NCBI GenBank assembly: GCA_948099385.1
Contig: CANUEZ040000207.1
Coordinates: 1,963,501 to 2,027,500 of the forward strand
Direction of reading: 5' to 3'
From: Fasciola hepatica
Taxonomy: Eukaryota; Platyhelminthes; Trematoda; Plagiorchiida; Fasciolidae
DNA length: 64,000 nt
Positions 15,359-56,559 of this stretch are shown piece after piece; position 1 is the first letter of the stretch; every line of letters begins with the position of its first letter. Below the pieces are notes generated by a model. The model saw only the letters and a list, made by a program, of their open reading frames with translations, searched no databases and was not told the origin of the DNA. The position numbers were made by a program, and so were the translations under genes.

Positions 15359-15381
15359 TTATATGACGTGAAACCACAACC

Positions 15382-26132: not shown

Positions 26133-26142
26133 GAAGCTATTA

Positions 26143-33235: not shown

Positions 33236-34044
33236 TGGATACTGGCAGTGGAGCTTCAGGGATAAGAAATGAATTGCACCATATTCGAAGTTCGATGGTT
33301 TGGAGCAGAAAGTGCAATCTATTATTTCAGATCAAAACAGTTCGCAGTTATCTTCTTGGAGGAAACCAGTAGACAACACAGAGTCAGTTGATGAAAAATC
33401 AGCATACATAACGCTTTCGATTCTAGGTTTTCCGATTTCTTCATCGAACAAAGGCACCCTATTTAGATAGGATCACTTGGAACATTTCGCAACGTACTTC
33501 TTACTCATTTGTTTCCACAGCACGTGTTCTCGTTGAATTTGATGAAATCCATACGTAAAAATCCTCTTTAACTTCTGCAAGTACGATAGAATTCGCCCAC
33601 CCGTGGGATTACATTTCACTATGGCAAAAAATCATGTCGTCGTAGTTTCTTTTAAATAGACCATCGCTCTCCAACAGAAACAATTTCACAGACAAACAGT
33701 GATACGGAGTCTTAGCGAGTTGGTGATACAGAAATAAAAGAAATAATATCAGCAAAAATAATAATGATAATAAAAATAATAATAACAATAGCGGCTTTTC
33801 TAAACAAGCAAAATAGTGCAGCCTGTTACGTGGTTTACTCTGAAACTCTTACTTATTGTCTTCGGATCGGGCTAATTTGGAAGATAATGAGTTCTTTATT
33901 AGGGCTTAATAAAAGTGAATTATTCTAAAGAAGGTGAACACTTTGTTCTCTACAAGGATTGTTTCCCTTGTTCAAATCATGCTTATCAAGAAATGATTCG
34001 AGAATCACACGATTTCATATAACGGCTAGTCACGACTTTTCAAG
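33236..34044. other. Gap with AAT-rich microsatellite
   Basis: Contains an interrupted (AAT)n/(AATA)n run at about 33733-33790. No gene seen. Confidence 0.6.
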
Positions 34045-34673
34045 ATGAAACGCGATCCAGCGGGAATGTTGATGATCTATTCAAAACTGTCGCTTCTAAT
34101 CGTCTTGCTTTTCCGTAGTATTGTGAGTGATCACCGATTAACGCAGAACAATTCTGTTGGGAATGAGCTACAATCCTGGTCGGATAACACTAACACGAAA
34201 TCCACAAGCACGAGGCTGAGCGAAACATCGATCATATATCGACTGGGCAATGAGCGTCAAGAGAAATCAGCGTCTATCGATTTGAGGTACGTGATTTCGT
34301 TGATCAATAGAGATCGGTTTGCACGCACATTCATAAAACAGGTAGGCAGAATGCACTGTCGGTACTTGGAACGGCATGTGAAGGCCAATCAGAATACAAC
34401 AAAGGTGAGCGAAGCTTTTTCTGAAGGATGATTTGGATTGCAAAGGAACTCCGAAGCTTCATGTTCTGCCCAAATACCGAAATGGGTTAAACAAGAATGA
34501 TTGCTAACTCTTTCCGTTGGGATTAGGAACATTTTTACGCGGCAGGAATGAGTCTCCGGGAAATGCAAAACACCGGGGAGCTTGGTGGATGTAGATCAGA
34601 AAGTGATTTTGAAGAAGATGCATCAGATAAGGAAACTGTTGAGGTCAGGACAAAAACCATGGGAATCAAATAA
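34045..34673 (+). CDS. Secreted orphan protein, two exons
   Basis: Exon 1 is 34045-34404 from an ATG; the donor AAG|GTGAGC is a near-perfect consensus. Exon 2 is 34527-34673 after ATTAG. Both junctions are phase 0, giving 168 residues. Residues 9-27 form a signal-peptide core (IYSKLSLLIVLLFRSIV). The mature part is polar, Asn/Ser/Thr-rich, then has a basic helix-like segment (SLINRDRFARTFIKQVG) and a strongly acidic end (SESDFEEDASDKETVE). There are only two cysteines, in MHCRYLE and GGCRSE, one per exon, which could form a single disulfide. No domain is recognised. AATAAA overlaps the stop codon, so the 3' UTR would be extremely short. Without splicing the first exon would add only eight codons. 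It sits 0.7 kb outside the palindrome. A real gene is likely, function unknown. Confidence 0.5.
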
Positions 34674-35391
34674 ATAATCTGAGTGAGTTTATTGGATCAT
34701 TCATAAAGTGGAATGTGCGAAAATCCACTTTCAAAATCAAGTTTTAAGAGGAATTTAAATGAAATGACTCTGGTGTAAAATAGACTCTGACTGTAGAATT
34801 CAGCAAACTAACTGCTTCGAAACTTTGTTCAAGGTGAAACTGTAGGGGCTGAAAACTCCAGGAATAATTCCACCCGTTGTCAATGAGATCACGATCGAAG
34901 TAGTCCAAGTTGAACAACTCACAGTTATAGTTATCCCTCTGGAGACCAACATATTTGAAGTATTTTTACCTGGCTCACGTACTGTTCAGGGGAACGGTGC
35001 AGAAACCTGTGTAACAACAAGTTCACGATTCTTTTGCAAATAGCAAATCACATGATAAATGTGTTCACTACTCGGTTTGTCGAGGGAACTAGTAATTCCG
35101 AATGGAGGATGTATTGTGGAACACTAGAGATAACGCCACCAGAAGGGCGAGCAGCACAATTGGAAGTTGAATGTGAAGAGCATGAAGTCGTACTTTGATA
35201 CTGTCTGTTTGCAGAGAGCCATCTCTTTTATTTGGACTCAGGTCAGAAGTGTTCACCTCTCTTGGTTATTTATGACGCCGCTATTTTGATGTGCTGACTC
35301 TTGATGGAAGTGCAACATGTTTTCTAATGAAATCCTTTCATTCATTCTGATTTCCTCATTACCTGACACATTTTCTTAAATTTTCCGATGA
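34674..35391. other. Unique left flank of the palindrome
   Basis: No gene recognised. It has no counterpart outside the right arm, which helps fix the arm boundary at 35392. Confidence 0.5.
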
Positions 35392-38300
35392 ACGTGGCTG
35401 ATGATCAGCCAGAACAAGGTCAGGAATTCTTGAAAACAACTGTTTACCCTTCAGCCATTTCGGTCATTAGGTAATACCCATCGAGGGTGGAGAAGACTTT
35501 AGATAGTCCAAGTTGAAAGATAGAATTCTTCAACTCAGAATGATCTATAATTAATAGGCTAAATTGTTCCCTGTGGGTTGTATGAAAGGTTTTCATGTTA
35601 AGAAGATGCATAATCCTGATGATTACCGCGCCTCGCAATCATACGGAAATGATGGCATACACGTTGTGCCTGGACACCTAGATACGGTGACAAACATGAA
35701 CATTCAAGTTAGAATACATACACTTAATGAGGAAATTCTTGTCGTACACGCTCATCAGTCGTGTAGGTAGGTATGAAATCAGGCAAACGACTGAATGTTT
35801 GAAGAGAATAAGGTGACTGAAGTGATATCCATGGGACTTAGGTATTTGAAGATTGAAAGGAATTCTTTCAGGAGTGTTTGTCTTCTGAATTGACTGTTCA
35901 AATATATATGAATATTCCGCAGCGTCACTTGTTGATTTGGTTTACGCGAAAACAGCTGACAAGTTGGGTGATTCCGTCCAATTTTAATGGCTAATAAATA
36001 TGCACTGTGTACGATGGTTCCAGTTACTATTCATGAGCTCAGTACTCAAATGAAAACAAAATGACTGACAATATGGAAGTATCAAGGAAGGATTCAGGGT
36101 AAGTGGCATCAATTCATAAACGTTTGTTGTGTGAATGCAAGCGGGCCCTTGGTTGCAACATTCATCTCTGCCTGTAAGTGGTTGTATCCAGGAGAGCTAG
36201 GCAGATCTTTAGGACCCAACCCAATGTGCTTAACATGCCTAGTTGTGATAAGTGTTTTGTTTGTGTTTTTAGAGAATATTCTACTTATCCTGTGCTCGAA
36301 AGCCCAACATGGCTTAAAATTACCATTCGCCGCAACAAACATTGTTGGAAGAGTCCATCCCGGAATAAATGTGAAACAAATCTGAATTTTATTGTTTGAC
36401 GAGGGAATTTGATTCACTTGGCCAAAGCTTGGCGCCTAATCTCAGCATCGTTGTTTAAGCTTATCCACCAGGTGGTAAAGTGGTTCAGAAGAAACCAATT
36501 TCTAGACGACTTCAGTCTTTTTGTATCCCATACGCACACAGAGCGGCCACTTCTTAGAGTTGCACAGGATAATTATCAGTGCTGCGTCCACTCGTAGAAG
36601 TCTGAGATCAGCGAATGCCTAACAAACCTCCAGTAGACCTAGGTACATTTCATTTGATAACCGACATCACTGAAATGTTACTGTCTACATAATTTTGAAT
36701 CCAGGTGAAGCTGTTAATATCTCTGTTACATCTTTCCTTATTTTTAAGTGAATCCCAAGTATTAGTTGATTCGACCAGCTGTAAAGTTCTCCTAATAGGG
36801 ACACTTGATGGGTTTGACAGTGATCACTCGTTACCTGCCCACGAAATCTCCCATAACCAGTCGAGAATCCAACTAGCAATGATGATTTCCATCAAAAATG
36901 ACCCCATCTATTACAAATGAGTAAAACCAGCTTCTCAGGAACCCCTGGATGGCGAGTTTTGACCATCGATTACTACACAGGATTTTTGGTAACTGTGACA
37001 TGTAGGATAAGCCAGATTGATGCTCTTACCGATCAATAGTTCGTTTTTCTAGAGCAAAACTTGATTACTGGCCCGTCAGCCCGTCCCGCGAGGAAACACA
37101 TTAGGATTTAAAAGGATGCACTTTAGGACAACATTTGGTTGAACTTTCAAGCGTTTCAACAAAAATATGACTAGGGAATCCCCAGAAAATGGTGCAGAAT
37201 GACATTTCAGTGAACAGCACGACGAACTTGGAGGGCCAGCTTTAACTGCCGCAAACTGCTCTGGAAATAGCCATTTCTTCATACCATACCTGTAGCTCAC
37301 GTTCCGTTGATCCAAATACCCACACAAGCGTTTCTATCGGATTCCAAAACAATCGCGGTAATTGGTGTACCACAATAAAAAAATATGAAAAAACAAACCA
37401 GAAGGTCGAAGGCATTTCGCCCAAGTAAAACCAAAATATGCTTATGGCACAAATATTGCGCTTTATGTTGCATGAACGAGATGAAGAACCGTTTAAACAG
37501 CTGTTCATATCATTTTGAATTGACTAGCACTTTTGGTACATTTCTGTCTATCTTAGGACAAAATATGTTTCATGAAAGGCGTCACGTTGACAACTGTCAC
37601 TGTCGATATCAAGTCAGGTCAATTCAAGGATGAACTTCATTCGTCCAAAGTGAGCAACAATTCCGCGGATTATGTGACGTTGTAGTCGTCTCGATGACCA
37701 CCTTGATGTATATCTGGTCGTCTGTCTTTCAGTCGCACAGACGGCCCAGTAGTACAGGTTATAATTGTCCTTTATCGGAATAAAGAATTAGGTAGAAAGA
37801 ATATTTTGTAAATATGTATGTTTCACAAAGGTTGGGTTGAAAATAAGTTGTGATATAGGTTTTTTTTCAAATCAAGTACCTACCGGTGGATAGTGGCAAG
37901 ATATAAACTGCTAATGGCCATCCAGAAGTTGACATGGCATGACAGCCGTTTCTAAATTGCTTGCTTCTTGTTGTGTTGAACCGACGGTTCATAATCATGT
38001 TTCACAATAAGGTGCTATATCTGAGACAGCCTTTTGGTCGCCCGGTATTTTACTGCTTTCAAATCAAGTCAGTTGAAATCAGTAGTTGATCCATACACTA
38101 AAATTGGTAGATTTAAGGCTTTTTACAACACTTCTACAGATAAAAAAGCTTTTCGTGCACTATTTCAACAGGGGAAAAAGAGAATCAGAATGGGTTAAAG
38201 GTCGATAGCCAAAGTGTTTTGTAGTTCTGAGGGAGCCTGCTTGAGAGGTAGACGAGCGAAATATGGCAAAACGGAATTGCGACAAGCAGAGGTGTGTGTA

Positions 38301-38544
38301 AACAACAGTTGGAAGTTCCAGTGTGACGGAGGATGTAAGTACAGCCGTTGCAAGTTCACTTTTCACGAGAAGATGAAATTCGGAGATCATTTTGGAAAGA
38401 GACTATCACAAGCACAATAGCATTTGTTTAGGATGCTGTCAACAAGTATAACCATACATATGCCACTGAATCTAGAGATGTGTTGTATGGACCTATGATC
38501 CAAGGAAAACCCATTTTAATCGGAGCATGTTCAAAAATGTGGGA
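35392..38544. other. Outer left arm, no recognised gene
   Basis: Short frames (up to 102 codons, 36417-36109 minus and 36131-36385 plus) are mirrored at 51927-52235 and 51959-52213. None shows a domain I can name. The left-arm minus strand (right-arm plus strand) generally holds the longer, more protein-like frames. Confidence 0.4.
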
Positions 38545-38835
38545 ATGTTGGCCCCATTCTGTGAAGAAAACTTAATTTGGTGGGAATTATTCGCTTGGAG
38601 TTAACTGTCTAGGTACCGTTTCTCCATTTGAAACTGTCGGACATTTCTGAACAAGGTCATCTTGATGATTCGGATCAGCCCGGACGGGAGCGCGGTGGCT
38701 CCGTAGCAATACACACGCCTTGGAGGTGAAAGGGCTTGGGTTCAAACCCTGGGAATGGCGAAGGATATGCACCACTGATGAGCGCTAACAAGAGCGAAAA
38801 TAATGTCTGGTGTCCCCAGTGCAGGTCGGTCATAT
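38545..38835 (+). repeat. SINE-like element, copy B (left arm)
   Basis: Matches copy A at 20608-20925: CCCCATTCTGTGAAGAA, TCGGACATTTCTG, then GAGCGCGGTGGCTCCGTAGC and GGGTTCAAACCCTGGGA (a strong B-box-like hairpin), followed by GGATATGCACCACTGATGAG and GTCTGGTGTCCCCAGTG. The tRNA-like part is better preserved than in copy A. Confidence 0.6.
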
Positions 38836-39246
38836 TTGAAATGTACAAACTCCGCAGCCCCCAAGAACCTGGAGTACTCTCGATCTGTCGAAACAGTTAA
38901 ATACATTACTGTAGTCAAAAAGCTTACTCTGACCGCCTGGCTTTTGTGGTCTGTTGGGGTTAAAAACGGGTACGTCATGCTAAGACCTTCCATGTGTAGC
39001 TTTAGTATTGGCATGCAAACTGGTTGGGATCCAGGGCATACGTCTGCGGGGAGATTGTACGCAGAACGAGTTTTTCGAACACCTTGAGGGTAGCTAGTGT
39101 ACAGGCAATGGACCGTTATTTCCATGATCCTTTTCAAGGCTTCGGAATAAAAGTGACCTCTCTCCATCAGTCAAGAATTTGTTATTGAGTCAAGCATGTG
39201 ATGACTAATACCGACATTATTGGGGACAGTGTTTCTGTGCACTTCT

Positions 39247-39636
39247 TTAGGTTACTGAAAGTAGACCGCCTGGATTGCTTATCTTGTTTGTCGAGAATTG
39301 GGTCAGTTCTTTGTACCCTTTCAAGGGAGGAATAGAACCTGAGACAGAGTTTGGTTTGAATTCTATGAATGAATTCAATGTTATTGCATGTTGAGCTGCA
39401 TCAGTGAAGCGCCAATTCAGTTTTTCAACATCTTCCGGAAGTGGATATTTACCAGATCTTAGACCACCTAACTGCATATTGGTTTTCCGGATGTCCCGGC
39501 AGTTCTTATTTGAAGTCATGGGTTGTGTGCGTAGGGCAAAGATCAGTGATTTTCCGTCGATGATTGGTCGTGTTCGGTCTCCAAAATAAAGAAACAGAAC
39601 AAAATCAATGAGCTCAAAGCTCGGTAAATGTATCAT
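39247..39636 (-). CDS. Unassigned 129-codon frame, left-arm copy
   Basis: Open frame on the minus strand, identical to 48708-49097 on the plus strand of the right arm. It starts from a non-ATG codon. The composition looks protein-like: SLIFALRTQP, KTNMQLGGLRSGKYPLPEDV, LNWRFTDAAQHAITLNSF and PLKGYKELTQF, with few low-complexity runs. I do not recognise the family. Immediately upstream on the same strand (39852-39670) is a 60-codon frame with RLRPVNFRASLLGQ and NQLTLTLEGYAL. This vaguely recalls the beta-rich repeats of MSP/ASH-type ciliary proteins, so both could be exons or a pseudogene of such a protein. That is speculation. There are no supporting splice sites I would trust. Confidence 0.25.
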   Translation of the reverse strand: MIHLPSFELIDFVLFLYFGDRTRPIIDGKSLIFALRTQPMTSNKNCRDIRKTNMQLGGLRSGKYPLPEDVEKLNWRFTDAAQHAITLNSFIEFKPNSVSGSIPPLKGYKELTQFSTNKISNPGGLLSVT

Positions 39637-40241
39637 CGGTGAACCAAACTTTCAATAATCGGGTACCAATTAGACTATGAACAACCTGCTCACTACACAC
39701 AATGCATAACCTTCTAAGGTCAGAGTTAATTGATTGTTACATGTCAAATCAAGGAATAGGATTTCCATATATAGAGTCTGTCCTAGTAGTGATGCTCGAA
39801 AGTTCACTGGTCTTAGGCGGTAAACATGTCGGGTAAAAAGTGTTACTGACACAAACCTCGGATTCCGTGCTCAACTGCGATCGACATTAAAGTTCAGTTA
39901 ACCGGTAGTAATAGGACCACGGACGATACAGGTCTTGGTTGGAAACTGAGTAACCGATTAAGTGCGTGTTTGTGTTGGCGTACACACGCCGGCATTAGCT
40001 AGGATCAGTAACGAAATGCACCGAGATTGATTACAGATCGCGATGGGGTTATCGACTGCAAAAATATTAGTGTGACAACGAAAACCAACCATTTTCGATT
40101 GCCGTTATGCTGAGCAAGAGTAAGAGTTTTCATCAGGTTTGTCTCTTTTTCGAGAATAAGCGGAGTGCAGATAAAACGTGAAAGGGTTTTTGTCGACGAT
40201 ATTCGAAGAGGAATTCGATTACTACATGAACAGTACGCAGG

Positions 40242-40985
40242 ATGGTAAGCCAATTTGAAGAAACTGCATCGGTTGAGGACAAAGCAAATAGCGGGCGACC
40301 AAAAACGGCCATAAGCAAAGGTGTCTCACATGAAGCTAGAAAAGGTTTTCGAGACCACCCACAGCAAATCACCCGACCACTCGCAAGCTGGTGTCATCAC
40401 ACGTGGTCATTCGTGGTCCGGAATCCACAAGAGAACAACTTGAAGTCATTTAAGAGGCGTCATCTGCAACGGTTTCACTTAGAAAATGCATATTGTCGCC
40501 TTCAGTTTTGTACCTGGTATCTCAGTCGCGACATTGTACGGTGCACCTAGTTTAGCGATGAAGCCATATTTCAGGTACGTGGAATGTGAATCTGCCAAAT
40601 ATACTGATCATAAGAGAATCGCAGGCAATTTGTGGCTGGATAATACCAGCATAATACCAAGTTTATGATTTGGGCAGGAATCCTGGGAGATAAAATTTAA
40701 CGATCCTTATTTTTCGATGAAAAATTCACAGGTGTAAAAAGATTTTATTTTATTGATTTTCAATAGGAAACGCCTCTGTGGACATGCCTCAACGTTTTTG
40801 AGCTTCTCTTGTGAATGCCGATGGATCAACTGTTGACAAAGTGACATATATTCGGCAGTAATTCAGAAACCTATTTCAGAGACGTTTGATTGGAAGAGGT
40901 GGATCAGTTGAACGACCCGTGGGTCTCCGGACCTGAATTCGTTAGACTTCATTCCGTGGTCCTTCTTAAAAAGAAAACTGTATCA
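40242..40985 (+). pseudogene. Mariner-family transposase relic (left arm)
   Basis: The 40242-40550 frame begins VSQFEETASVEDKANSGRPK, matching the mariner N-terminal helix-turn-helix linker 'xxFxETGSVEDKxRSGRPKT', and continues to FKRRHLQRFHLE and LQFCTWYLS, like the RRxxFCxWFL block. About 40670-40735 gives WAGILGDKI then LFFDEKFTG, matching VWxGIxGDxIIGPYFF. About 40860-40985 gives LIGRGGSVERPVGL, the WIGRGGxVxWPPRSPDLT block. The catalytic D positions between these are eroded and the frames shift. Terminal repeats were not identified. The copy lies wholly inside the arm and is mirrored at 47359-48102. Confidence 0.6.
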
Positions 40986-42299
40986 AAATTGACCGGAAAC
41001 CTCGGAGGACTAGAAACCATCCATCACATTGCGGTACAATAGAATAGCTGAGTGTGTTGGAGTAAGCGAAGATGTCTTCCCTTAAAAGGTTGATAATGTG
41101 CAGACAAACGTATAGGTATCAGTTGAACACCACGTGGTAACATTTAGCATTATTAGCTATACACAGCTAGATCAGTCAGAGACAGAGCTGCTTCAAAAGT
41201 TAGATGACTGGGAAGCGAGGCTGCAGATTGGAAGTGAAACAACTGGCCTAAAGTTTTTGGTTAACACTTCTAATCATCTACGGTATTGCAATCTTCAATG
41301 GATAATAACTAACTATTTCATCCATAATTATTCACTGATAGGTAGCCACAACTATATGGTTAACACATCCACTCTTGTCATAACCCCCTCACGCATGGAG
41401 AGAAAGGTTGAATTTCTTTCCAGGGTTGTTTTACTTGAACTATTGTGAGGAGTAAAAACGTTGCAACTTACTGTCGATCAAAATCATTCCAACTGACAGG
41501 TACTGTCGGAGCCGTTGCATACGGGTGTTCGACAAACACATTTTCTGCTCGTACACGACTGCATTGAAGCACAACTGAATAATTTTATAGTAACCATAAC
41601 AAGCACGTAGTGGTGATGTTTTACGACAATGAAATTTGCGGTTTGCTTGTGTGCGATGAACAGCTATGCTCCAAAATCAGTAGAAACTGTATTTTGCAAC
41701 TGCCAGTTGGCCACAGCTATGAAAGAATACGAACCTCTGAGAGAAAACGGAAAAGCAATATTTTACATTGAATCAACCCAAACGTTATTCAGGACAAAGT
41801 GCTCAAACACGGTATTAAACATGTGGTCTACCTAATTCCTTAGGATTTTCCGCATTCTCATCGGTATAGAGTTCACCATGTTGGTGATAAAATAATTAAT
41901 TATCTTATGCACCATCATATATTGCACTTTTTACTCCAGTGGCCAGTGTGTAGATAACCCATTGACTAATTTTGACCAATTTTTTGCTATTAAATTTAAA
42001 TCAACGCTATTAGGGAGTAATTGTATGAGCTGGAACTTGAAGTTGCGCATGGTTACGATAGATAGTGAACGGAAAAATCGTTCAGCATGACTTTTTCACA
42101 GGTCTCTTGTGAAACAAAGCATCAAGCAAAACCCTGAAAAACCATTGCCTATCCAGTTAACTTCGTTTTGTTGACTTCTGGGACTTTTTCAATCATACCA
42201 TTGAAGATTTCCCCAACATTCGATGCTTCTGTAACTGAAGTCCACCAGCAAAGCTAAATGTGTTTTATTCCAGTCCAGATCAATAACGTTAATTTGTAT

Positions 42300-42560
42300 C
42301 ATATACCAACATTTGGCGGGATAATTTTTCTGGGGAAATTAATACGCCGAGTGACATTTTTCCGAGCCTTCTGCAGCCCACCATATAACAAAAACGCATA
42401 CGACAAACAAACCAATCGTCGGAATGATGAGCTTCGTGATGTGAATCTCCCTGTGAAATCAAAACGTGTCTTCATTTGTTGGGATTGCAGTGCAGGTTTC
42501 ATATCACATGATACAAGCCGCATTAAAAATTATCACTACATCATGTCCAACAGAGAATAA
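42300..42560 (+). repeat. Dispersed repeat shared with 61.2 kb (left arm)
   Basis: It contains ACAAACAAACCAATCGTCGG, CGTGATGTGAATC, TTCATTTGTTGGG and TGTGATAC-like blocks in the same order and spacing as 61170-61400. In translation both show QTNR, RD-N and C-W-x-C at equal spacing. Family unknown; probably an old transposon piece. Confidence 0.5.
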
Positions 42561-43484
42561 AACAGTTTGGGAATATTCCAGAGCAGGACTAAGAACAGGG
42601 ATTTCAGGCAGTTTTTTGATCGTAGGGCACATAAAATCGTCCCATCCATTCGATTTCCTAGGTCTTCTTTTTATTACACATGAAGGTAATTACAGTAGAA
42701 GAGGTAGACCCCATAGTTCGGAAATGTACTGTAAGAGGAGTCTGTAGGGAACATTCACGTCAAAACTAGTTTGTTGATTCCGCTTTTGAAAAGAGAGAGG
42801 TTCTATGTTGGTGAAAAGACAGAGAGGGGAAGGGTGTTCCATAACTTAACCGTCCAGGGGAAAAAAGAAGACTGAAAAGTCACGGTCCGTGGTTTAGCTC
42901 CAGAAAGCTGATAGGAGCGACTAGCTGCCTGTGCTAGGGATTGGCGTTGAAAAGTAATGGGAATAGGAACAGTCGAGAGAAAGCCCAGAGGGACTTATCC
43001 CTAAATAATAATGTAGAATAGGGACACCGAAGCAATTGCCCGGCGAAGAGCAAGTAACTGCAAATTAGACGATAAAACTCGGTCATCTACCAGGCGAATG
43101 GCTTTGCGTTGCACTAGGTAGAGAAGAGATAAAGAAGAAGACTAAGCTTCACCCCACACCTGACAGCGCTATTCAAGTGTGGTACGGATTTGAGCTTGCG
43201 TACAGTAAAAGGGAGGGGGGGGGGGGTATGAAAATACTCGAAGTGCGGATTAAAAATTCAGTCTTCTGCGCGGCACGATAAGCAAACTAAAATAGGTATG
43301 AAAACAAATTTAGAGAGAAAACGGTCAAAAGACCCAGGAAAAGAATGGAATTAGAGGGATGAAGGGGAACCGAATCAAAACTTAGTAAGAGAGAAAAGAA
43401 ATGATGTTTGACAGAAATAAGGAGAACAAATGTTTTAGAAGCATTGAAGAGAACGTGATTTTGAGAGCCTCAAGAGGAGATCTG

Positions 43485-43848
43485 TTAAATGTCCAAACTG
43501 CCCCATGCTACAGGGGAAAAACGATCAAGGTCGACGTTGGCAGTGGCATGACGGGAGGTGGGATGCAAAAGGAAGTTGTGGAGGATGACATCCTCGGCAA
43601 AAGCGAAAATGGAGATGGAAGTAGTTGACAAGTGAACATTCACAAAAGGCGAAAAGAGGGTGATTGAGAATACATAATCTCGGCAAACACCGGCGTTCAT
43701 GGGGGAAAGGCTGCCATTTTGCACCATGGACACAAACCGTAATGGTCCGGTTACTGAGAAAACTCGACATCCACAAGCCAATGGTCGGAACAAACCCAAA
43801 ATTGGGCAATTTACACAGTAAACCACTGTGCCATACACGGTCGGTCAC
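43485..43848 (-). pseudogene. LINE reverse transcriptase core, frameshifted
   Basis: The first frame gives TDRVWHSGLLCKLPNFGF and LWMSSFLSNRTITVCVHG, matching the jockey/CR1 block KAFDRVWHxGLLxKLxxxGF and WxxSFLxNRxxxVxVxG. A second frame carries NAGVCRDYVFSITLFSPFVN and then FAFAEDV, matching NAGVPQGSVLSPxLFxxFIND and the FADD box. The catalytic pair reads A-E-D, a likely inactivating change. Downstream (about 43480-43055) the thumb region is poorly preserved and contains a 12-G run at 43215-43226. Confidence 0.65.
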
Positions 43849-44636
43849 CGTGCATAGCAGGAGAAAAAAATTATGGCTTCTTTATATGGGGCGGGAAACA
43901 TACGAGATTGGAAAGAAAGTCGAAACAAATGACATTAAATTGGTGCTTATTCCGGGGCGCTTATCTTTGGATGGTGGGTGGTATATCATCCTGACTAGGT
44001 GATTTATTCTGATCGAGTGATTGTAAAGTCCAAAGGACCATTTTGGTTGTGATAAGGCGAATAAAAGGGCGTCTCGTAAGAATGGTTCGAGGTGGAATAA
44101 TGGAAGAGTTGGGTAAAGTGGAATTAAAGGCAAATTGGGGCGCGAAACCTCGACTTTCTCATGAGGTTTGAAGGCAAAACGACGGGTGCTTCGTCATGGG
44201 AGAAAAATTAGAGGGGAGGCGGAGAGTGGGAATTACGGGAACAGCTTCGACGAAAGACCAAATCGAATGGCTACCAGTAGCGGAAGAAGCTAGACGTTTG
44301 GCTTAGTGGCAGGTGAAACGATTCTTGGCTATATGAATTGAAAGTGAGCATGTCTTTTTGGCCCACATGAAGAGACTACGATATGGGACAGTGGCAAAGC
44401 AGCATCACTGTCTGAATAACACGTTCTTTAAGAGTACAGCGCCATGGCAGGCGTGGGCAAATTACACGGTAGATAGTAGTTTGCCAAGTTTGGAAAAGTG
44501 CGGAATAAAAAGAAGCGTCCCTTGGAGAAGAGTCACAGTGAAGTTTGCAATGGAGGAAGAAACCTTTGAAGTGAAGTAACAGTCTCATCAGAGATATGAG
44601 GATAGAAAATCAGAAAAACCTTCCTGGTTGGATGAA

Positions 44637-44906
44637 TCATAACACCAAATGATGTGTCTGGCTTTGTACACAGAAACAGTCATATAAATCGGCAGAGGAG
44701 GACATAAGACAGTGGTTCGACCAGCAGAGTGGAGGAAGGGAGATAATATCAGAGAAAAAGGAGGGAAAGGAAGTGAAAACAAGACCGAGAGTATGTGCAT
44801 GCTTGCAAGCCCAATCGGGAATGCGTGCGAGGAAGTCAACGAGTTGACTTCGATTGTTGAGTAAAGCGAAAGCTTCGGCTTCGAGTCCCAGAGCCGTAGT
44901 GTCCAA
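44637..44906 (-). pseudogene. LINE endonuclease C-terminal part
   Basis: The minus-strand frame reads AEAFALLNNRSQLVDFLARI, then a LxLVFTSxP stretch and PPLCWSNHCLMSSS. LINE endonucleases of the exonuclease-endonuclease-phosphatase family have LxxLVxxPTR followed by LDLxLTxxP and the catalytic SDHxxV. Here SDH is altered to S-N-H. An overlapping frame 44839-44588 carries the same region shifted. Confidence 0.6.
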
Positions 44907-45292
44907 TGAGTGCTAAAGCCATGTTAGCTGGAACTTGCAGTTAGCGAAGTTCAAGTGTGAGATACGAGAGGCAGCAACTAACTGGTGGATGTAGGCATGG
45001 GAGCCAGCTTGAGATAAAAATGAGGAATCGAAAAAGTAGTTCGGAAACTGGAGACTGATAGTATTCGCCGTGGGTGGGTTTTGCGTTTCCTCCAGGAATA
45101 AGACGGGGGGGGGATAAGGAGATTGAAAAAATTATGCTCAGAATCAGTTTTGTGGTTCAAACCGCGAATTTCGGTAAGTGCGTCTTCTTTAGTAAAGTGC
45201 CGAGAAACTTCAGTTTCAGTAGATCCCTTCACCGCTATCGCGATAACAATACAAGCGATTAAAAAATGAGCTCAAATGAACTTGAAGACAAC

Positions 45293-45590
45293 GCTCTTCG
45301 CCGGGCAATTGCTTCGGTGTCCCTATTCTACATTATTATTTAGGGATAAGTCCCTCTGGGCTTTCTCTCGACTGTTCCTATTCCCATTACTTTTCAACGC
45401 CAATCCCTAGCACAGGCAGCTAGTCGCTCCTATCAGCTTTCTGGAGCTAAACCACGGACCGTGACTTTTCAGTCTTCTTTTTTCCCCTGGACGGTTAAGT
45501 TATGGAACACCCTTCCCCTCTCTGTCTTTTCACCAACATAGAACCTCTCTCTTTTCAAAAGCGGAATCAACAAACTAGTTTTGACGTGAA
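45293..45590 (+). pseudogene. LINE 3' fragment inside right arm
   Basis: Starts abruptly at ALRRAIASVSLFY and continues to FQSSFFPWTVKLWNTLP and LFKSGINKLV. This is the conserved C-terminal tail of LINE ORF2 (RRAxIASLxLFYRYY, SFFPRTxxLWNxLP, FKxxV). It mirrors 43051-42760. It abuts, head to head, the 5'-truncated minus-strand LINE of the spacer. Confidence 0.75.
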
Positions 45591-45783
45591 TGTTCCCTAC
45601 AGACTCCTCTTACAGTACATTTCCGAACTATGGGGTCTACCTCTTCTACTGTAATTACCTTCATGTGTAATAAAAAGAAGACCTAGGAAATCGAATGGAT
45701 GGGACGATTTTATGTGCCCTACGATCAAAAAACTGCCTGAAATCCCTGTTCTTAGTCCTGCTCTGGAATATTCCCAAACTGTT

Positions 45784-46044
45784 TTATTCTCTGTTGGACA
45801 TGATGTAGTGATAATTTTTAATGCGGCTTGTATCATGTGATATGAAACCTGCACTGCAATCCCAACAAATGAAGACACGTTTTGATTTCACAGGGAGATT
45901 CACATCACGAAGCTCATCATTCCGACGATTGGTTTGTTTGTCGTATGCGTTTTTGTTATATGGTGGGCTGCAGAAGGCTCGGAAAAATGTCACTCGGCGT
46001 ATTAATTTCCCCAGAAAAATTATCCCGCCAAATGTTGGTATATG
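45784..46044 (-). repeat. Dispersed repeat (right-arm copy)
   Basis: Mirror of 42300-42560; also related to 61170-61400. Confidence 0.5.
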
Positions 46045-47358
46045 ATACAAATTAACGTTATTGATCTGGACTGGAATAAAACACATTTAGCTTTGCTGGT
46101 GGACTTCAGTTACAGAAGCATCGAATGTTGGGGAAATCTTCAATGGTATGATTGAAAAAGTCCCAGAAGTCAACAAAACGAAGTTAACTGGATAGGCAAT
46201 GGTTTTTCAGGGTTTTGCTTGATGCTTTGTTTCACAAGAGACCTGTGAAAAAGTCATGCTGAACGATTTTTCCGTTCACTATCTATCGTAACCATGCGCA
46301 ACTTCAAGTTCCAGCTCATACAATTACTCCCTAATAGCGTTGATTTAAATTTAATAGCAAAAAATTGGTCAAAATTAGTCAATGGGTTATCTACACACTG
46401 GCCACTGGAGTAAAAAGTGCAATATATGATGGTGCATAAGATAATTAATTATTTTATCACCAACATGGTGAACTCTATACCGATGAGAATGCGGAAAATC
46501 CTAAGGAATTAGGTAGACCACATGTTTAATACCGTGTTTGAGCACTTTGTCCTGAATAACGTTTGGGTTGATTCAATGTAAAATATTGCTTTTCCGTTTT
46601 CTCTCAGAGGTTCGTATTCTTTCATAGCTGTGGCCAACTGGCAGTTGCAAAATACAGTTTCTACTGATTTTGGAGCATAGCTGTTCATCGCACACAAGCA
46701 AACCGCAAATTTCATTGTCGTAAAACATCACCACTACGTGCTTGTTATGGTTACTATAAAATTATTCAGTTGTGCTTCAATGCAGTCGTGTACGAGCAGA
46801 AAATGTGTTTGTCGAACACCCGTATGCAACGGCTCCGACAGTACCTGTCAGTTGGAATGATTTTGATCGACAGTAAGTTGCAACGTTTTTACTCCTCACA
46901 ATAGTTCAAGTAAAACAACCCTGGAAAGAAATTCAACCTTTCTCTCCATGCGTGAGGGGGTTATGACAAGAGTGGATGTGTTAACCATATAGTTGTGGCT
47001 ACCTATCAGTGAATAATTATGGATGAAATAGTTAGTTATTATCCATTGAAGATTGCAATACCGTAGATGATTAGAAGTGTTAACCAAAAACTTTAGGCCA
47101 GTTGTTTCACTTCCAATCTGCAGCCTCGCTTCCCAGTCATCTAACTTTTGAAGCAGCTCTGTCTCTGACTGATCTAGCTGTGTATAGCTAATAATGCTAA
47201 ATGTTACCACGTGGTGTTCAACTGATACCTATACGTTTGTCTGCACATTATCAACCTTTTAAGGGAAGACATCTTCGCTTACTCCAACACACTCAGCTAT
47301 TCTATTGTACCGCAATGTGATGGATGGTTTCTAGTCCTCCGAGGTTTCCGGTCAATTT

Positions 47359-48102
47359 TGATACAGTTTTCTTTTTAAGAAGGACCACGGAATGAAGTCT
47401 AACGAATTCAGGTCCGGAGACCCACGGGTCGTTCAACTGATCCACCTCTTCCAATCAAACGTCTCTGAAATAGGTTTCTGAATTACTGCCGAATATATGT
47501 CACTTTGTCAACAGTTGATCCATCGGCATTCACAAGAGAAGCTCAAAAACGTTGAGGCATGTCCACAGAGGCGTTTCCTATTGAAAATCAATAAAATAAA
47601 ATCTTTTTACACCTGTGAATTTTTCATCGAAAAATAAGGATCGTTAAATTTTATCTCCCAGGATTCCTGCCCAAATCATAAACTTGGTATTATGCTGGTA
47701 TTATCCAGCCACAAATTGCCTGCGATTCTCTTATGATCAGTATATTTGGCAGATTCACATTCCACGTACCTGAAATATGGCTTCATCGCTAAACTAGGTG
47801 CACCGTACAATGTCGCGACTGAGATACCAGGTACAAAACTGAAGGCGACAATATGCATTTTCTAAGTGAAACCGTTGCAGATGACGCCTCTTAAATGACT
47901 TCAAGTTGTTCTCTTGTGGATTCCGGACCACGAATGACCACGTGTGATGACACCAGCTTGCGAGTGGTCGGGTGATTTGCTGTGGGTGGTCTCGAAAACC
48001 TTTTCTAGCTTCATGTGAGACACCTTTGCTTATGGCCGTTTTTGGTCGCCCGCTATTTGCTTTGTCCTCAACCGATGCAGTTTCTTCAAATTGGCTTACC
48101 AT
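47359..48102 (-). pseudogene. Mariner-family transposase relic (right arm)
   Basis: Exact mirror of the left-arm copy at 40242-40985, with the same helix-turn-helix linker (SVEDKANSGRPK) and the same frame breaks. The breaks therefore predate the palindrome or have been homogenised since. Confidence 0.6.
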
Positions 48103-48491
48103 CCTGCGTACTGTTCATGTAGTAATCGAATTCCTCTTCGAATATCGTCGACAAAAACCCTTTCACGTTTTATCTGCACTCCGCTTATTCTCGAAAAAGA
48201 GACAAACCTGATGAAAACTCTTACTCTTGCTCAGCATAACGGCAATCGAAAATGGTTGGTTTTCGTTGTCACACTAATATTTTTGCAGTCGATAACCCCA
48301 TCGCGATCTGTAATCAATCTCGGTGCATTTCGTTACTGATCCTAGCTAATGCCGGCGTGTGTACGCCAACACAAACACGCACTTAATCGGTTACTCAGTT
48401 TCCAACCAAGACCTGTATCGTCCGTGGTCCTATTACTACCGGTTAACTGAACTTTAATGTCGATCGCAGTTGAGCACGGAATCCGAGGTTT

Positions 48492-48674
48492 GTGTCAGTA
48501 ACACTTTTTACCCGACATGTTTACCGCCTAAGACCAGTGAACTTTCGAGCATCACTACTAGGACAGACTCTATATATGGAAATCCTATTCCTTGATTTGA
48601 AATGTAACAATCAATTAACTCTGACCTTAGAAGGTTATGCATTGTGTGTAGTGAGCAGGTTGTTCATAGTCTAA
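48492..48674 (+). CDS. Unassigned 60-codon frame, right-arm copy
   Basis: ATG-started frame with RLRPVNFRASLLGQTLYMEI and LTLTLEGYAL. It is mirrored at 39852-39670, where one codon differs (Lys here, Thr there, from the single base difference 39743/48601). It is followed 33 bp later on the same strand by the 129-codon frame at 48708. The pattern of a beta-strand-rich segment ending in LTLxGYA resembles immunoglobulin-like repeats of ciliary MSP/ASH proteins, but the similarity is too weak to name a family. Could be an exon of a broken host gene. Confidence 0.2.
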   Translation: MSVTLFTRHVYRLRPVNFRASLLGQTLYMEILFLDLKCNNQLTLTLEGYALCVVSRLFIV

Positions 48675-48707
48675 TTGGTACCCGATTATTGAAAGTTTGG
48701 TTCACCG

Positions 48708-49097
48708 ATGATACATTTACCGAGCTTTGAGCTCATTGATTTTGTTCTGTTTCTTTATTTTGGAGACCGAACACGACCAATCATCGACGGAAAATCACTG
48801 ATCTTTGCCCTACGCACACAACCCATGACTTCAAATAAGAACTGCCGGGACATCCGGAAAACCAATATGCAGTTAGGTGGTCTAAGATCTGGTAAATATC
48901 CACTTCCGGAAGATGTTGAAAAACTGAATTGGCGCTTCACTGATGCAGCTCAACATGCAATAACATTGAATTCATTCATAGAATTCAAACCAAACTCTGT
49001 CTCAGGTTCTATTCCTCCCTTGAAAGGGTACAAAGAACTGACCCAATTCTCGACAAACAAGATAAGCAATCCAGGCGGTCTACTTTCAGTAACCTAA
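48708..49097 (+). CDS. Unassigned 129-codon frame, right-arm copy
   Basis: Identical to the left-arm frame 39636-39247. It starts from a non-ATG codon and ends at TAA. Features: FGDRTRPIIDGKSLIFALRT, QLGGLRSGKYPLPEDVEKLN, and HAITLNSFIEFKPNSVS. Charge and hydrophobic spacing look like a folded domain rather than random translation, and it has survived intact in both arms. No catalytic motif is visible. As the arms are nearly identical everywhere, conservation between arms does not by itself indicate selection. Confidence 0.25.
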   Translation: MIHLPSFELIDFVLFLYFGDRTRPIIDGKSLIFALRTQPMTSNKNCRDIRKTNMQLGGLRSGKYPLPEDVEKLNWRFTDAAQHAITLNSFIEFKPNSVSGSIPPLKGYKELTQFSTNKISNPGGLLSVT

Positions 49098-49508
49098 AGA
49101 AGTGCACAGAAACACTGTCCCCAATAATGTCGGTATTAGTCATCACATGCTTGACTCAATAACAAATTCTTGACTGATGGAGAGAGGTCACTTTTATTCC
49201 GAAGCCTTGAAAAGGATCATGGAAATAACGGTCCATTGCCTGTACACTAGCTACCCTCAAGGTGTTCGAAAAACTCGTTCTGCGTACAATCTCCCCGCAG
49301 ACGTATGCCCTGGATCCCAACCAGTTTGCATGCCAATACTAAAGCTACACATGGAAGGTCTTAGCATGACGTACCCGTTTTTAACCCCAACAGACCACAA
49401 AAGCCAGGCGGTCAGAGTAAGCTTTTTGACTACAGTAATGTATTTAACTGTTTCGACAGATCGAGAGTACTCCAGGTTCTTGGGGGCTGCGGAGTTTGTA
49501 CATTTCAA

Positions 49509-49799
49509 ATATGACCGACCTGCACTGGGGACACCAGACATTATTTTCGCTCTTGTTAGCGCTCATCAGTGGTGCATATCCTTCGCCATTCCCAGGGTTT
49601 GAACCCAAGCCCTTTCACCTCCAAGGCGTGTGTATTGCTACGGAGCCACCGCGCTCCCGTCCGGGCTGATCCGAATCATCAAGATGACCTTGTTCGGAAA
49701 TGTCCGACAGTTTCAAATGGAGAAACGGTACCTAGACAGTTAACTCCAAGCGAATAATTCCCACCAAATTAAGTTTTCTTCACAGAATGGGGCCAACAT
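49509..49799 (-). repeat. SINE-like element, copy B' (right arm)
   Basis: Mirror of 38545-38835, with one base difference inside (38648/49696). Confidence 0.6.
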
Positions 49800-52700
49800 T
49801 CCCACATTTTTGAACATGCTCCGATTAAAATGGGTTTTCCTTGGATCATAGGTCCATACAACACATCTCTAGATTCAGTGGCATATGTATGGTTATACTT
49901 GTTGACAGCATCCTAAACAAATGCTATTGTGCTTGTGATAGTCTCTTTCCAAAATGATCTCCGAATTTCATCTTCTCGTGAAAAGTGAACTTGCAACGGC
50001 TGTACTTACATCCTCCGTCACACTGGAACTTCCAACTGTTGTTTACACACACCTCTGCTTGTCGCAATTCCGTTTTGCCATATTTCGCTCGTCTACCTCT
50101 CAAGCAGGCTCCCTCAGAACTACAAAACACTTTGGCTATCGACCTTTAACCCATTCTGATTCTCTTTTTCCCCTGTTGAAATAGTGCACGAAAAGCTTTT
50201 TTATCTGTAGAAGTGTTGTAAAAAGCCTTAAATCTACCAATTTTAGTGTATGGATCAACTACTGATTTCAACTGACTTGATTTGAAAGCAGTAAAATACC
50301 GGGCGACCAAAAGGCTGTCTCAGATATAGCACCTTATTGTGAAACATGATTATGAACCGTCGGTTCAACACAACAAGAAGCAAGCAATTTAGAAACGGCT
50401 GTCATGCCATGTCAACTTCTGGATGGCCATTAGCAGTTTATATCTTGCCACTATCCACCGGTAGGTACTTGATTTGAAAAAAAACCTATATCACAACTTA
50501 TTTTCAACCCAACCTTTGTGAAACATACATATTTACAAAATATTCTTTCTACCTAATTCTTTATTCCGATAAAGGACAATTATAACCTGTACTACTGGGC
50601 CGTCTGTGCGACTGAAAGACAGACGACCAGATATACATCAAGGTGGTCATCGAGACGACTACAACGTCACATAATCCGCGGAATTGTTGCTCACTTTGGA
50701 CGAATGAAGTTCATCCTTGAATTGACCTGACTTGATATCGACAGTGACAGTTGTCAACGTGACGCCTTTCATGAAACATATTTTGTCCTAAGATAGACAG
50801 AAATGTACCAAAAGTGCTAGTCAATTCAAAATGATATGAACAGCTGTTTAAACGGTTCTTCATCTCGTTCATGCAACATAAAGCGCAATATTTGTGCCAT
50901 AAGCATATTTTGGTTTTACTTGGGCGAAATGCCTTCGACCGTCTGGTTTGTTTTTTCATATTTTTTTATTGTGGTACACCAATTACCGCGATTGTTTTGG
51001 AATCCGATAGAAACGCTTGTGTGGGTATTTGGATCAACGGAACGTGAGCTACAGGTATGGTATGAAGAAATGGCTATTTCCAGAGCAGTTTGCGGCAGTT
51101 AAAGCTGGCCCTCCAAGTTCGTCGTGCTGTTCACTGAAATGTCATTCTGCACCATTTTCTGGGGATTCCCTAGTCATATTTTTGTTGAAACGCTTGAAAG
51201 TTCAACCAAATGTTGTCCTAAAGTGCATCCTTTTAAATCCTAATGTGTTTCCTCGCGGGACGGGCTGACGGGCCAGTAATCAAGTTTTGCTCTAGAAAAA
51301 CGAACTATTGATCGGTAAGAGCATCAATCTGGCTTATCCTACATGTCACAGTTACCAAAAATCCTGTGTAGTAATCGATGGTCAAAACTCGCCATCCAGG
51401 GGTTCCTGAGAAGCTGGTTTTACTCATTTGTAATAGATGGGGTCATTTTTGATGGAAATCATCATTGCTAGTTGGATTCTCGACTGGTTATGGGAGATTT
51501 CGTGGGCAGGTAACGAGTGATCACTGTCAAACCCATCAAGTGTCCCTATTAGGAGAACTTTACAGCTGGTCGAATCAACTAATACTTGGGATTCACTTAA
51601 AAATAAGGAAAGATGTAACAGAGATATTAACAGCTTCACCTGGATTCAAAATTATGTAGACAGTAACATTTCAGTGATGTCGGTTATCAAATGAAATGTA
51701 CCTAGGTCTACTGGAGGTTTGTTAGGCATTCGCTGATCTCAGACTTCTACGAGTGGACGCAGCACTGATAATTATCCTGTGCAACTCTAAGAAGTGGCCG
51801 CTCTGTGTGCGTATGGGATACAAAAAGACTGAAGTCGTCTAGAAATTGGTTTCTTCTGAACCACTTTACCACCTGGTGGATAAGCTTAAACAACGATGCT
51901 GAGATTAGGCGCCAAGCTTTGGCCAAGTGAATCAAATTCCCTCGTCAAACAATAAAATTCAGATTTGTTTCACATTTATTCCGGGATGGACTCTTCCAAC
52001 AATGTTTGTTGCGGCGAATGGTAATTTTAAGCCATGTTGGGCTTTCGAGCACAGGATAAGTAGAATATTCTCTAAAAACACAAACAAAACACTTATCACA
52101 ACTAGGCATGTTAAGCACATTGGGTTGGGTCCTAAAGATCTGCCTAGCTCTCCTGGATACAACCACTTACAGGCAGAGATGAATGTTGCAACCAAGGGCC
52201 CGCTTGCATTCACACAACAAACGTTTATGAATTGATGCCACTTACCCTGAATCCTTCCTTGATACTTCCATATTGTCAGTCATTTTGTTTTCATTTGAGT
52301 ACTGAGCTCATGAATAGTAACTGGAACCATCGTACACAGTGCATATTTATTAGCCATTAAAATTGGACGGAATCACCCAACTTGTCAGCTGTTTTCGCGT
52401 AAACCAAATCAACAAGTGACACTGCAGAATATTCATATATTTGAACAGTCAATTCAGAAGACAAACACTCCTGAAAGAATTCCTTTCAACCTTCAAATAC
52501 CTAAGTCCCATGGATATCACTTCAGTCACCTTATTCTCTTCAAACATTCAGTCGTTTGCCTGATTTCATACCTACCTACACGACTGATGAGCGTGTACGA
52601 CAAGAATTTCCTCATTTAGTGTATGTATTCTAACTTGAATGTTCATGTTTGTCACCGTATCTAGGTGTCCAGGCACAACGTGTATGCCATCATTTCCGTG

Positions 52701-52950
52701 TGATTGCGAGGCGCGGTAATCATCAGGATTATGCATCTTCTTAACATGAAAAAGTTGCATACAACCCACAGGGAACAATTTAGCCTATTATTTATAGATC
52801 ATTCTGAGTTGAAGAATTCTATCTTTCAACTTGGACTATCTAAAGTCTTCTCCAACCTCGATGGGTATTACCTAATGACCGAAATGGCTGAAGGGTAAAC
52901 AGTTGTTTTCAAGAATTCCTGACCTTGTTCTGGCTGATCATCATCCACGT
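49800..52950. other. Outer right arm, no recognised gene
   Basis: Mirror of the outer left arm. Frames such as 50836-51102, 51017-51268 and 51927-52235 (+) are open but unassigned. Confidence 0.4.
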
Positions 52951-55076
52951 GAATGCAGCTTGGTTAACAAGATATTAGCTAGGTAATGAGTAGTAAGCTC
53001 ATAAAAGGGGGCTTTTGTGTTCCTAATTATTATTAGACCACTTGATGGTGGCACTATATTTATTTGTACTACGCGGCCGTAGCTTGCGAGCAAACAGCAG
53101 GCAAGTGCAAGTTATCAAAGCAATGTCAATGAACTGCATATACTAGTGCGCCTTCACCTTAAGCCACACATGGTTAGTCGATACATAGTAGAATCAATGG
53201 GTCAACAAACATCGCATGATTAAACATAAACAAGCACGAGGATGATGTCGATCGATTTTCCGGACACAGCAGGAACCATTCAGACAATTTTCCGTGTTAC
53301 AGCTTTATTCTCATCTGAACCGAATAGAGCCTGCATGGGCGAAGTTCATTTTTGGAATCACTCAATGCTCAAGTACAAAGGTAATTGGGCTGGAAAGCAA
53401 GGAATACGTATACCTGATGAGCGGCAAGAACCGCGAAACTAGTCGTGTGCTCCAGGAGAAATTTCGTCCTGTCATCCACACACAATACCATACTATTGAT
53501 ATCAAAAATCTTCCCTTTTGAGTATTTTGCATACTGTGTCACTGACGTACTGTTTTTCTCTCTAGTTCGCTTCGATTTGCTTGCCCAATCATTTTGGTAG
53601 TTATCGCGCTCTCTTAAATTAGGTACTGGATAACCATTCCTTTACTGAGAATAGCTCGAAAGCAAAATATGTCCCCCTGTCCATACGGACATTTTATTCT
53701 TTCAGCAGCATGAAGAGTGGTCAATCACGGCTAAAATAAACATGTGGCGGGGTAGTTCTGCTTCTGAATGGTCGGCGGTAGTCAAACGGTTATCACTGTG
53801 GACTTTGGGCAATAACGGCCCGTTTTCCATTCCCACCACCTCTTGTCAATTTTTCATTGAGTAGACTTTCATTGATCGCTGCGACCTACCTGAATTGTTG
53901 AAATTCTTGTATAACAAACGCAACGGGAGGCGGAAGGGATAGTTGACGATTATTCTTCCAAAGATATAGTCCCATTTGTGGTTTTAAAGTTATAAGAAGT
54001 ATATGATCTAAGGTATTAAAGTGTATATTCAGAAAATATTTCATGCTGTTTCGTACCAATTTCCGGAGTTTCATTGCCCTAGAAGGGACCGCACAATTAA
54101 TTATTTGATTTGACATGATTGAACTGAACCATACTAAGAAGAATTTGAAATAATAATGTTCTCTTCAAAATGGTAGAGTTACCAAAACATAACAACGCAT
54201 AATAGACTGCCAAAACTGGTCAGCTGTTTTCAGTGGAACCCTAATGCACTGAAAATGGAAAATAGTACATGAATTACAAAACAACACATTATGGTCAGGA
54301 AAAAGTTGTGAACGAGTCTTTGACACCAGGAAGTGTTTCATAGTCACATCCAACGTACAGGTCTATGCTGCCTCATCCTATTGGCACAACCATGGAATGC
54401 AACTTGGAGTAGCCAACAAAACATTGGACCACCTGAGAGAATTTTCAACATATTCTTCCTACTACCTGAATGTAGGTCATTTTGCGGGTTAGAAAAATTA
54501 CGGTTCCAACTTCTCACGGAATCAGTGGCTACGGGACCGTTAAAAGGTGCTTTTCACAAGAAGTAGTAACAAAGCTATGAAAATTATACCAATAGTATGA
54601 TGAAAATTACAATACCCTAAAATCACGCGACTTTCGGATCTGCAGATAATTCATTGCATCGGTGGGCAATACAATTGTGTGCTTCTGTTGAACACTCTGA
54701 TAGAATGTTCTTAGTATTGTTAGACTCGGTCTCCAGTGGAACTATTGACCCTAAAATGGAATGTTCATCGATGAACATCCGAGGTGAATTGAGTGAGTGG
54801 GAATGCATTTAGTGATTGATTGTGTTGCTCAGATTGAGAAAACATACAACCCAACTAGTACTCAACAGTTCCAGGTAGCTTACTTTAGTAGAAAATCAAC
54901 TGTGGGGACGGTGATGGTCGATCTGATTTTGATCGTGGTGGTGGTGGTGGTTATAACAAGATAAGTATGTATACATCATTTATGTTTTTTATATATAATT
55001 ATACTGGTTATCATCATTGTGATTTGGAGGATCTCAAACACACTCGCGTTTACCTATACTGTACTTCGTACGAACC
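52951..55076. other. Unique right flank, no firm gene
   Basis: An ATG frame at 53242-53442 (66 codons) and an overlapping one to 53521 (RVLQEKFRPVIHTQYHTIDI) are unassigned. 54333-54566 holds another open frame. A short (GGT)n run lies at about 54936-54953, and a TA-rich tract at 54990-55010 precedes the next gene. Nothing here matches the left flank. Confidence 0.4.
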
Positions 55077-56144: not shown

Positions 56145-56168
56145 GATGAATTATTTACTCTATTTCGA

Positions 56169-56178
56169 AATAAATAAA
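56169..56178 (+). promoter_or_regulatory. Polyadenylation signals, overlapping pair
   Basis: Two overlapping AATAAA hexamers 25 bp after the predicted stop of the CAP-like gene, consistent with a compact 3' UTR. Confidence 0.5.
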
Positions 56179-56261
56179 TTCGCATACAATCAAACTGAGT
56201 GTCTATCCAAACAACAATTTATTGCTCCTGTGCAAATTGATTTAACCAGTTATTTCTATTT

Positions 56262-56516: not shown

Positions 56517-56559
56517 AATATTTCCAAATAACTTACCACTTGAGCCTCACATCCGGAAG

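Follow-up and report, generated by a model that had tools for sequence, protein, structure and literature searches.

How did two 7.66-kb stretches of DNA that face each other across a 2.24-kb spacer come to be 99.8% alike, and is their arrangement as young as their likeness? The question is raised by a 17.6-kb palindrome of the liver fluke Fasciola hepatica. It lies in a window of 64,000 nucleotides, the whole stretch analysed here, on contig CANUEZ040000207.1 of assembly GCA_948099385.1 (C207:1963501-2027500). The contig, C207, measures 2.84 Mb within a 1.5-Gb assembly of 656 contigs. We consider it likely that this inverted duplication in an amplicon-rich contig arose by two microhomology-guided template switches and that arm-to-arm gene conversion has since maintained the 99.8% identity. 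The palindrome is probably real and gene-converted; it is of an ordinary kind in a surprising place, and one of many in an amplicon array by secreted-protein-like gene families.

The window was compared with itself by BLASTN. A single long inverted pair was found, with 7660 columns, 99.79% identity, 14 mismatches and one gap (coordinates in Table 1). A match of 7.66 kb at 99.8% is not chance. The arm ends were sharp on both sides; when the outer flanks, and likewise the spacer ends, were aligned locally, the scores were no better than those of shuffles. A decayed arm beyond the outer edge was also considered on the basis of weak homology and a shared 10-mer; it scored below shuffles, and paralogs place the left flank in another family. 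The palindrome consists of two inverted kilobase-scale arms of >99% identity and a non-homologous spacer, as in gene-converted ampliconic palindromes. The differences between the arms were unevenly spread. Eleven substitutions and a 2-bp indel (35902/35903), which make up 12 of the 15 events, all fell between 35398 and 35923, and the other 7.1 kb contained three substitutions only, at 37403, 38648 and 39743. The binomial P for 12 of 15 events in the outermost 532 bp is about 5e-12 against an even spread. These results bear out the first-pass annotation of the window, which had described a near-perfect palindrome with these arms and spacer, an uneven spread of differences, and paired coordinates that sum to 88344, or 88342 in the outermost part; the difference map shows that the sum changes at the 2-bp indel, being 88342 outside it and 88344 inside. 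The annotation had further claimed that every reading frame reappears inverted. This follows from the identity of the arms, but it is uninformative, as the arms contain no open reading frame (ORF) of at least 150 aa.

Two other palindromes on C207 share the layout of the one in the window. P1025 (C207:1029130-1039286) has arms of 2409 bp at 99.585%, and P719 (C207:723071-733339) has arms of 2477 bp at 99.677%. In both, the left flank, the base at the arm junction and the right flank are as in the window palindrome. Part of the shared right flank also flanks a linear paralog at C207:584-589 kb. Between the window and P1025, the flanks differ at 111 of 1615 aligned bases on the left and at 177 of 3623 on the right (5-7%). 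The sister arms are shorter (2.4-2.5 kb) because their left arm stops at the point matching window position 37825; the right arm extends several kb further, and a repeat-containing centre replaces the remainder. P1025 and P719 lie about 306 kb apart and are 98.9% alike over 11.8 kb, and were therefore counted as one independent comparison. The same junctions are thus present in diverged copies, with a layout older than the arm identity, although the two sisters are perhaps one independent locus.

We then compared the arms among the three loci. In the 1.9-kb arm interior shared by the window, P1025 and P719 (the arm inside the outer 532 bp), the two arms of a locus were 99.95% (window), 99.95% (P1025) and 99.79% (P719) identical, whereas the window and its sisters were 95.2-95.6% identical. 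Deeper arm blocks that are present in one sister arm were 96.6-97.3% like the window. Overall, the arms are 99.6-99.8% identical within a locus versus 95-97% between loci. A tree of the shared interior that groups arms by locus was favoured over one that groups them by side (delta lnL, the log-likelihood difference, 372.6; approximately unbiased (AU) test, p 2e-6). Arms that cluster by locus and not by side are what gene-converted ampliconic palindromes display. Since the layout is shared and the arms group by locus, the arms must have been homogenised after the loci parted. The arms show concerted evolution, and its likely cause is arm-to-arm gene conversion. Given that diverged copies of the mirror layout exist on the same contig, copying between the two window arms has likely maintained their likeness. 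The suggestion of an amplicon kept alike by gene conversion is supported: two other palindromes on C207 share the outer flanks and the outer-left junction, and the arms cluster by locus. The accompanying description of a recently formed inverted duplication is not supported, because the layout predates the flank split of 5-7% mismatches, and the homogenisation alone is recent. At a mutation rate of 1.73e-9, as quoted in a figure legend of PMC8519440 and taken as per year, 3 differences in 7128 bp would correspond very roughly to ~0.1 million years and 288 mismatches in 5238 bp to ~16 million years.

In two of the three loci, the outer part of the arms is richer in differences than the interior. 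In the window, 11/530 differences were found in the outer part versus 1/1882 in the inner part (p 5e-7), and the respective counts for P1025 were 9/530 and 1/1879 (p 9e-6). The inner edge of the window arms had no rise in divergence; the inner 551 bp contained 0 differences, against about 12 expected at the outer rate. At site 35398, the base is C in each of the three left arms and A in each of the three right arms. Sites 35394, 35409 and 37782 are split by side in both sisters, and in a tree of the outer 532 bp the left arms of the two sisters group together (83/92).

The origin of the layout can be read from its junctions. An uninverted paralog with flank-arm-spacer order is present at C207:583837-597184, and comparison with it reveals two junctions that are new in the palindrome. 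The outer-left one had 30 genome matches, and three loci span it. All 13 arm-side matches begin at 35392; of the 14 flank-side matches, seven end at 35395 and the other seven end at or before 35393. The four bases ACGT are therefore common to the flank family and the arm family; two flank paralogs were read at this junction. At the inner junction, the spacer runs into GCTCATG in 4/4 linear paralogs read, whereas in the window it runs GCTCTTCG into the inverted arm. Among the 41 matches listed (40 of 851 candidates scored), only the window locus spans the inner junction. The sisters lack this junction because the corresponding stretch of the palindrome is no longer present in them. Both junctions have 4-bp microhomology, as in rearrangements by microhomology-mediated break-induced replication (MMBIR) or fork stalling and template switching (FoSTeS), which suggests an origin by template switching; an intermediate that would show copying from an existing template was not found. 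The pattern of origin-dependent inverted-repeat amplification (ODIRA), with short inverted repeats 40-80 nt apart according to PMC10766186, was not found at the centre, where GAGC and GCTC lie 2241 bp apart across the 2.2-kb spacer; under ODIRA, the palindrome centre may have been enlarged later.

The course of events that we propose is as follows. A replicating end in the left-flank family would have switched at ACGT onto an arm and then copied the arm and the spacer. A second switch at GCTC onto an inverted arm would have produced two facing arms. Later, the arms may have paired, with repeated copying of one arm by the other. The outermost half kilobase, beside non-matching flanks, would have been reached less often or less recently and so have kept private differences and a few older ones. 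The sister palindromes apparently lost their centre and one inner arm. Repetition of this process would build alternating direct and inverted copies of the gene families nearby, which are venom-allergen-like (VAL) and C-type-lectin-like.

Several results weigh against this account. P1025 and P719 may be one independent locus or a duplicated haplotype. P719 had no significant outer excess (3/530 vs 4/1879, p 0.18). The tree of the outer 532 bp still pairs the two arms of the window (91/96), so the outer part, too, was alike after the split from the sisters. Site 35398 is the only window arm difference shared by side with both sisters, and most of the outer differences are private to the window's left arm; ectopic conversion from another paralog into that arm could also explain them. 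Given this pairing and these private differences, either the last conversion of the outer part lies further back, or a tract from another paralog was transferred into the left arm. In addition, a signature of GC-biased conversion was absent from the window branch, on which strong-to-weak changes exceeded weak-to-strong ones (18 vs 9 with the linear outgroup, 10 vs 5 with other outgroups); GC bias is a usual companion of gene-converted palindromes but no requirement. Finally, a 4-base microhomology has about a 1.6% chance per junction under a simple model, and it does not separate template switching from end joining.

This last point bears on the alternative that survives best, namely a real conserved palindrome whose arms came to face each other differently, either because a tandem duplicate was inverted or because an inverted piece was attached by end joining, and were subject to gene conversion later. 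Microhomology-mediated end joining, too, typically leaves microhomologies of four bases, and large direct duplications exist on C207. Two junctions with 4-bp microhomology are, however, most simply explained by two switches, and the window contains no direct copy of the arm next to the palindrome. We regard another route as possible but doubtful.

An assembly artefact is unlikely. Candidates are a fold-back, a haplotype duplicated in error, and polishing with short reads that evened out the arms everywhere but within an insert length of the unique flank. Most of the differences that survive in the window and P1025 are no more than 532 bp away from the outer edge, which is about the reach of paired short reads; C207 is exactly 2,841,000 bp long; and a direct repeat on C207 with a 123-kb offset (99.59%), as well as the likeness of P719 and P1025, could represent haplotype duplication. 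A simple fold-back is nevertheless not expected to yield a 2.2-kb spacer or junctions common to loci that are 5-7% diverged. Polishing should also spare the spacer-side edge, yet the inner 551 bp are free of differences, and in other palindromes of this assembly differences persist far into the arms (33, 39 and 20 events). The first-pass annotation had named an artefact as a possibility and had argued from the spacer and the uneven differences against a simple fold-back. The shared junctions and the deep differences disfavour both a fold-back and a collapse by polishing; the half-kilobase reach of the differences remains a reason for care.

It is very unlikely that a recent one-step inverted duplication, in which the arms are alike through youth and not through gene conversion, accounts for the palindrome. 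The inner 7.1 kb has only its three substitutions, and the inner junction was found at the window locus alone, both as a young duplication would predict. But such an event would need to recreate the outer-left junction shared with palindromes that are 5-7% diverged in their flanks, and the 2% divergence of the outer 532 bp and the split by side at 35398 favour an older pair. A large transposon with long terminal inverted repeats is highly improbable: the arms do contain transposon debris, including a weak DUF4817 match, but neither a target-site duplication at the palindrome ends nor whole-unit copies elsewhere were found, one locus only among the 41 matches listed spans the inner junction, and among the matches listed those to the arm of >1.4 kb are all on C207, with other contigs reaching <=1.34 kb at 69-77%.

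The outer 709 bp of the arm had 20 genome matches. Sixteen of these are long; they all lie on C207, occur in both orientations and include the window's two arms. The other four matches are short fragments (46-55 bp). The remainder of the arm occurs in pieces across C207. Window positions 10901-15697, 20 kb left of the palindrome, match C207:320840-325533 at about 87-88%, where the match directly follows an arm-spacer segment. In the 200 kb of C207:240001-440000, three palindromes were found, with arms of 25.1 kb (99.86%, 9.1-kb spacer), 13.1 kb (99.69%, 9.1-kb spacer) and at least 10.8 kb (99.8%, 0.7-kb spacer). Their 33, 39 and 20 difference events are distributed over arm lengths of 25, 13 and at least 11 kb, respectively. 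The direct repeat with the 123-kb offset aligns at 99.59% over 52 kb and reaches the end of the stretch. Copies of at least 1 kb at >=99% cover 95% of the bases, and inverted ones 86%; these figures are not typical of the genome because the stretch was chosen as copy-rich.

Table 1. Features of the palindrome and its surroundings (positions in the window)
Feature	Position	Strand	Remarks
C-type-lectin-like ORF	57..683	+	208 aa; 88% over its length to Fasciola gigantica FGIG_07383
Second, more diverged SCP/TAPS-like first exon	27880..28080	+	
Left flank common to the P1025 and P719 loci	33758..35391	+	About 92%; up to the exact junction
Outer-left junction	35392..35395	+	4-bp microhomology ACGT between flank family and arm family
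Left arm	35392..43051	+	7660 bp; self-BLASTN and difference map
Outer 532 bp of left arm	35392..35923	+	97.9% identity to right arm; contains 12/15 difference events
Old dispersed repeat within arm	39913..41108	+	About 69-77% on other contigs; overlaps weak DUF4817 match
Second old dispersed repeat within arm	41496..42668	+	About 71-75% on other contigs
Spacer	43052..45292	.	2241 bp
Inner junction	45293..45296	+	4-bp microhomology GCTC, common to the continuing spacer and the inverted arm
Right arm, inverted copy of left arm	45293..52950	-	7658 bp; self-BLASTN and difference map
Outer 530 bp of right arm, partner of 35392..35923	52421..52950	-	
Right flank common to the P1025 and P719 loci	52951..56580	+	92.6% over 3.6 kb, 92.1% over 2.8 kb
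Probable first exon of venom-allergen-like (SCP/TAPS) gene	55077..55265	+	Start resembles a signal peptide; CAP N-terminal motif; lies 2.1 kb beyond right arm

The arms contain two old dispersed repeats, and the spacer is mostly another. ORFs of at least 150 aa with ATG, GTG or TTG starts numbered four in the whole window and 0 in the arms. No gene was recognised when all six frames of the left arm and the spacer were searched with X at stops; the only hit was a sub-threshold match to the DUF4817 helix-turn-helix domain at about 40140-40274 (18.3 bits vs the cut-off of 22.6). The genome search for the two arm repeats in Table 1 scored 40 of 6210 candidates. Within its positions 1-2130, the spacer resembles a dispersed repeat that many other contigs carry (about 66-78% identity); positions 2132-2241 were found on C207 only, among the matches listed (40 of 2004 candidates scored for the spacer). 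Rfam gave no match in the window at the gathering score.

The genes near the palindrome were examined next. The two exon-like frames in Table 1 align with one from C207:331 kb. A profile of these three first exons had three PDB matches at E <=5, all of the CAP/SCP-TAPS family: Schistosoma mansoni SmVAL4 (7e-4), Ancylostoma secreted protein 1 (0.026) and venom allergen 3 (1.1). Pfam gave no CAP match, either in the exons or in frames of the plus strand beyond 54.9 kb; later VAL-like exons were not found, and the VAL-like exon had no candidate in the protein database. We therefore treat the VAL-like gene as a candidate. The frame 55023-55265 had 68 genome matches, with 57 on C207 and 11 on C47, C167 and C168. 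For the C-type-lectin-like ORF, five proteins were found, and all four named ones are from Fasciola. In the reverse direction, the F. gigantica lectin protein reached at most 92% in the genome. It had 150 scored genome matches (of 247 candidates), of which 18 are at 17 places on C207. VAL-like and lectin-like matches recur at an offset of ~306 kb between about 671-762 kb and 977-1069 kb of C207, which represents a large direct duplication or a duplicated haplotype. A palindrome is also present on another contig (C48:189617-199100), with arms of at least 4.0 kb at 99.78% and a C-type-lectin-like exon in each arm; this stretch was picked because its two lectin matches scored identically. It suggests that palindromes also occur in lectin clusters outside C207.

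Most knowledge of long gene-converted palindromes comes from sex chromosomes, whose lack of a recombining partner serves to explain them. Fasciolid flukes are hermaphrodites without known sex chromosomes; the process that defines such palindromes does not depend on a sex-chromosome location. The ampliconic palindromes of the mammalian X and Y (PMC8981503) resemble the one studied here in their large >99% arms kept by arm-to-arm conversion, in a non-matching spacer and in a layout older than the arm identity. They differ in that the present palindrome lies on a contig of a probably hermaphroditic fluke, lacks GC bias, and has transposon debris and no recognised gene in its arms, with the VAL-like first exon 2.1 kb outside. 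Inverted copy-number variants formed by template switching (MMBIR, FoSTeS and ODIRA), as described in PMC10766186, share an inverted copy joined at short microhomology and a proneness of palindromes to secondary loss of the centre. In contrast to those variants, the palindrome in the window is old and multiplied in an array, and the window contains no triplication. The subtelomeric segmental duplications of Schistosoma mansoni (PMC10900676) are alike in that fluke gene families were expanded by segmental duplication. The main text of that paper contains none of the strings 'palindrom', 'inverted' and 'gene conversion', whereas 86% of the 200 kb read here consists of inverted copies. Among the titles listed in searches of the open-access literature, none was on nuclear palindromes in flukes, and the nearest topic was the W-elements of Schistosoma mansoni (PMC8490949).

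We tentatively propose that this hermaphroditic fluke has a Y-like ampliconic region, in which palindromes born serially by template switching and homogenised by conversion multiply and reshuffle the VAL and C-type-lectin-like families over at least 2.8 Mb; the idea is plausible, but we lean slightly towards doubting it. The secreted-protein gene array of a probable hermaphrodite has the signature of a sex-chromosome palindrome, that is, an old layout, a young arm identity and readable junctions. This opens the question of whether palindromes serve gene amplification generally rather than the repair of a lonely chromosome. Moreover, gene counts of the VAL-like and lectin-like families in fluke assemblies hinge on resolving inverted copies.

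Some minor features were also recorded. The length of C207 hints at a cut at a bin border. ARAGORN placed a tRNA-Thr at 2040-2112, which is without Rfam support at the gathering score and thus unconfirmed, possibly a pseudogene. Positions 31643-32035 hold a reverse-transcriptase fragment (RVT_1, below the Pfam cut-off) of a decayed retroelement. A direct tandem duplication lies at 16581-18084 (778 columns, 79.6%), and a 235-bp unit is present in two tandem copies, 88% alike, at 25905-26368.

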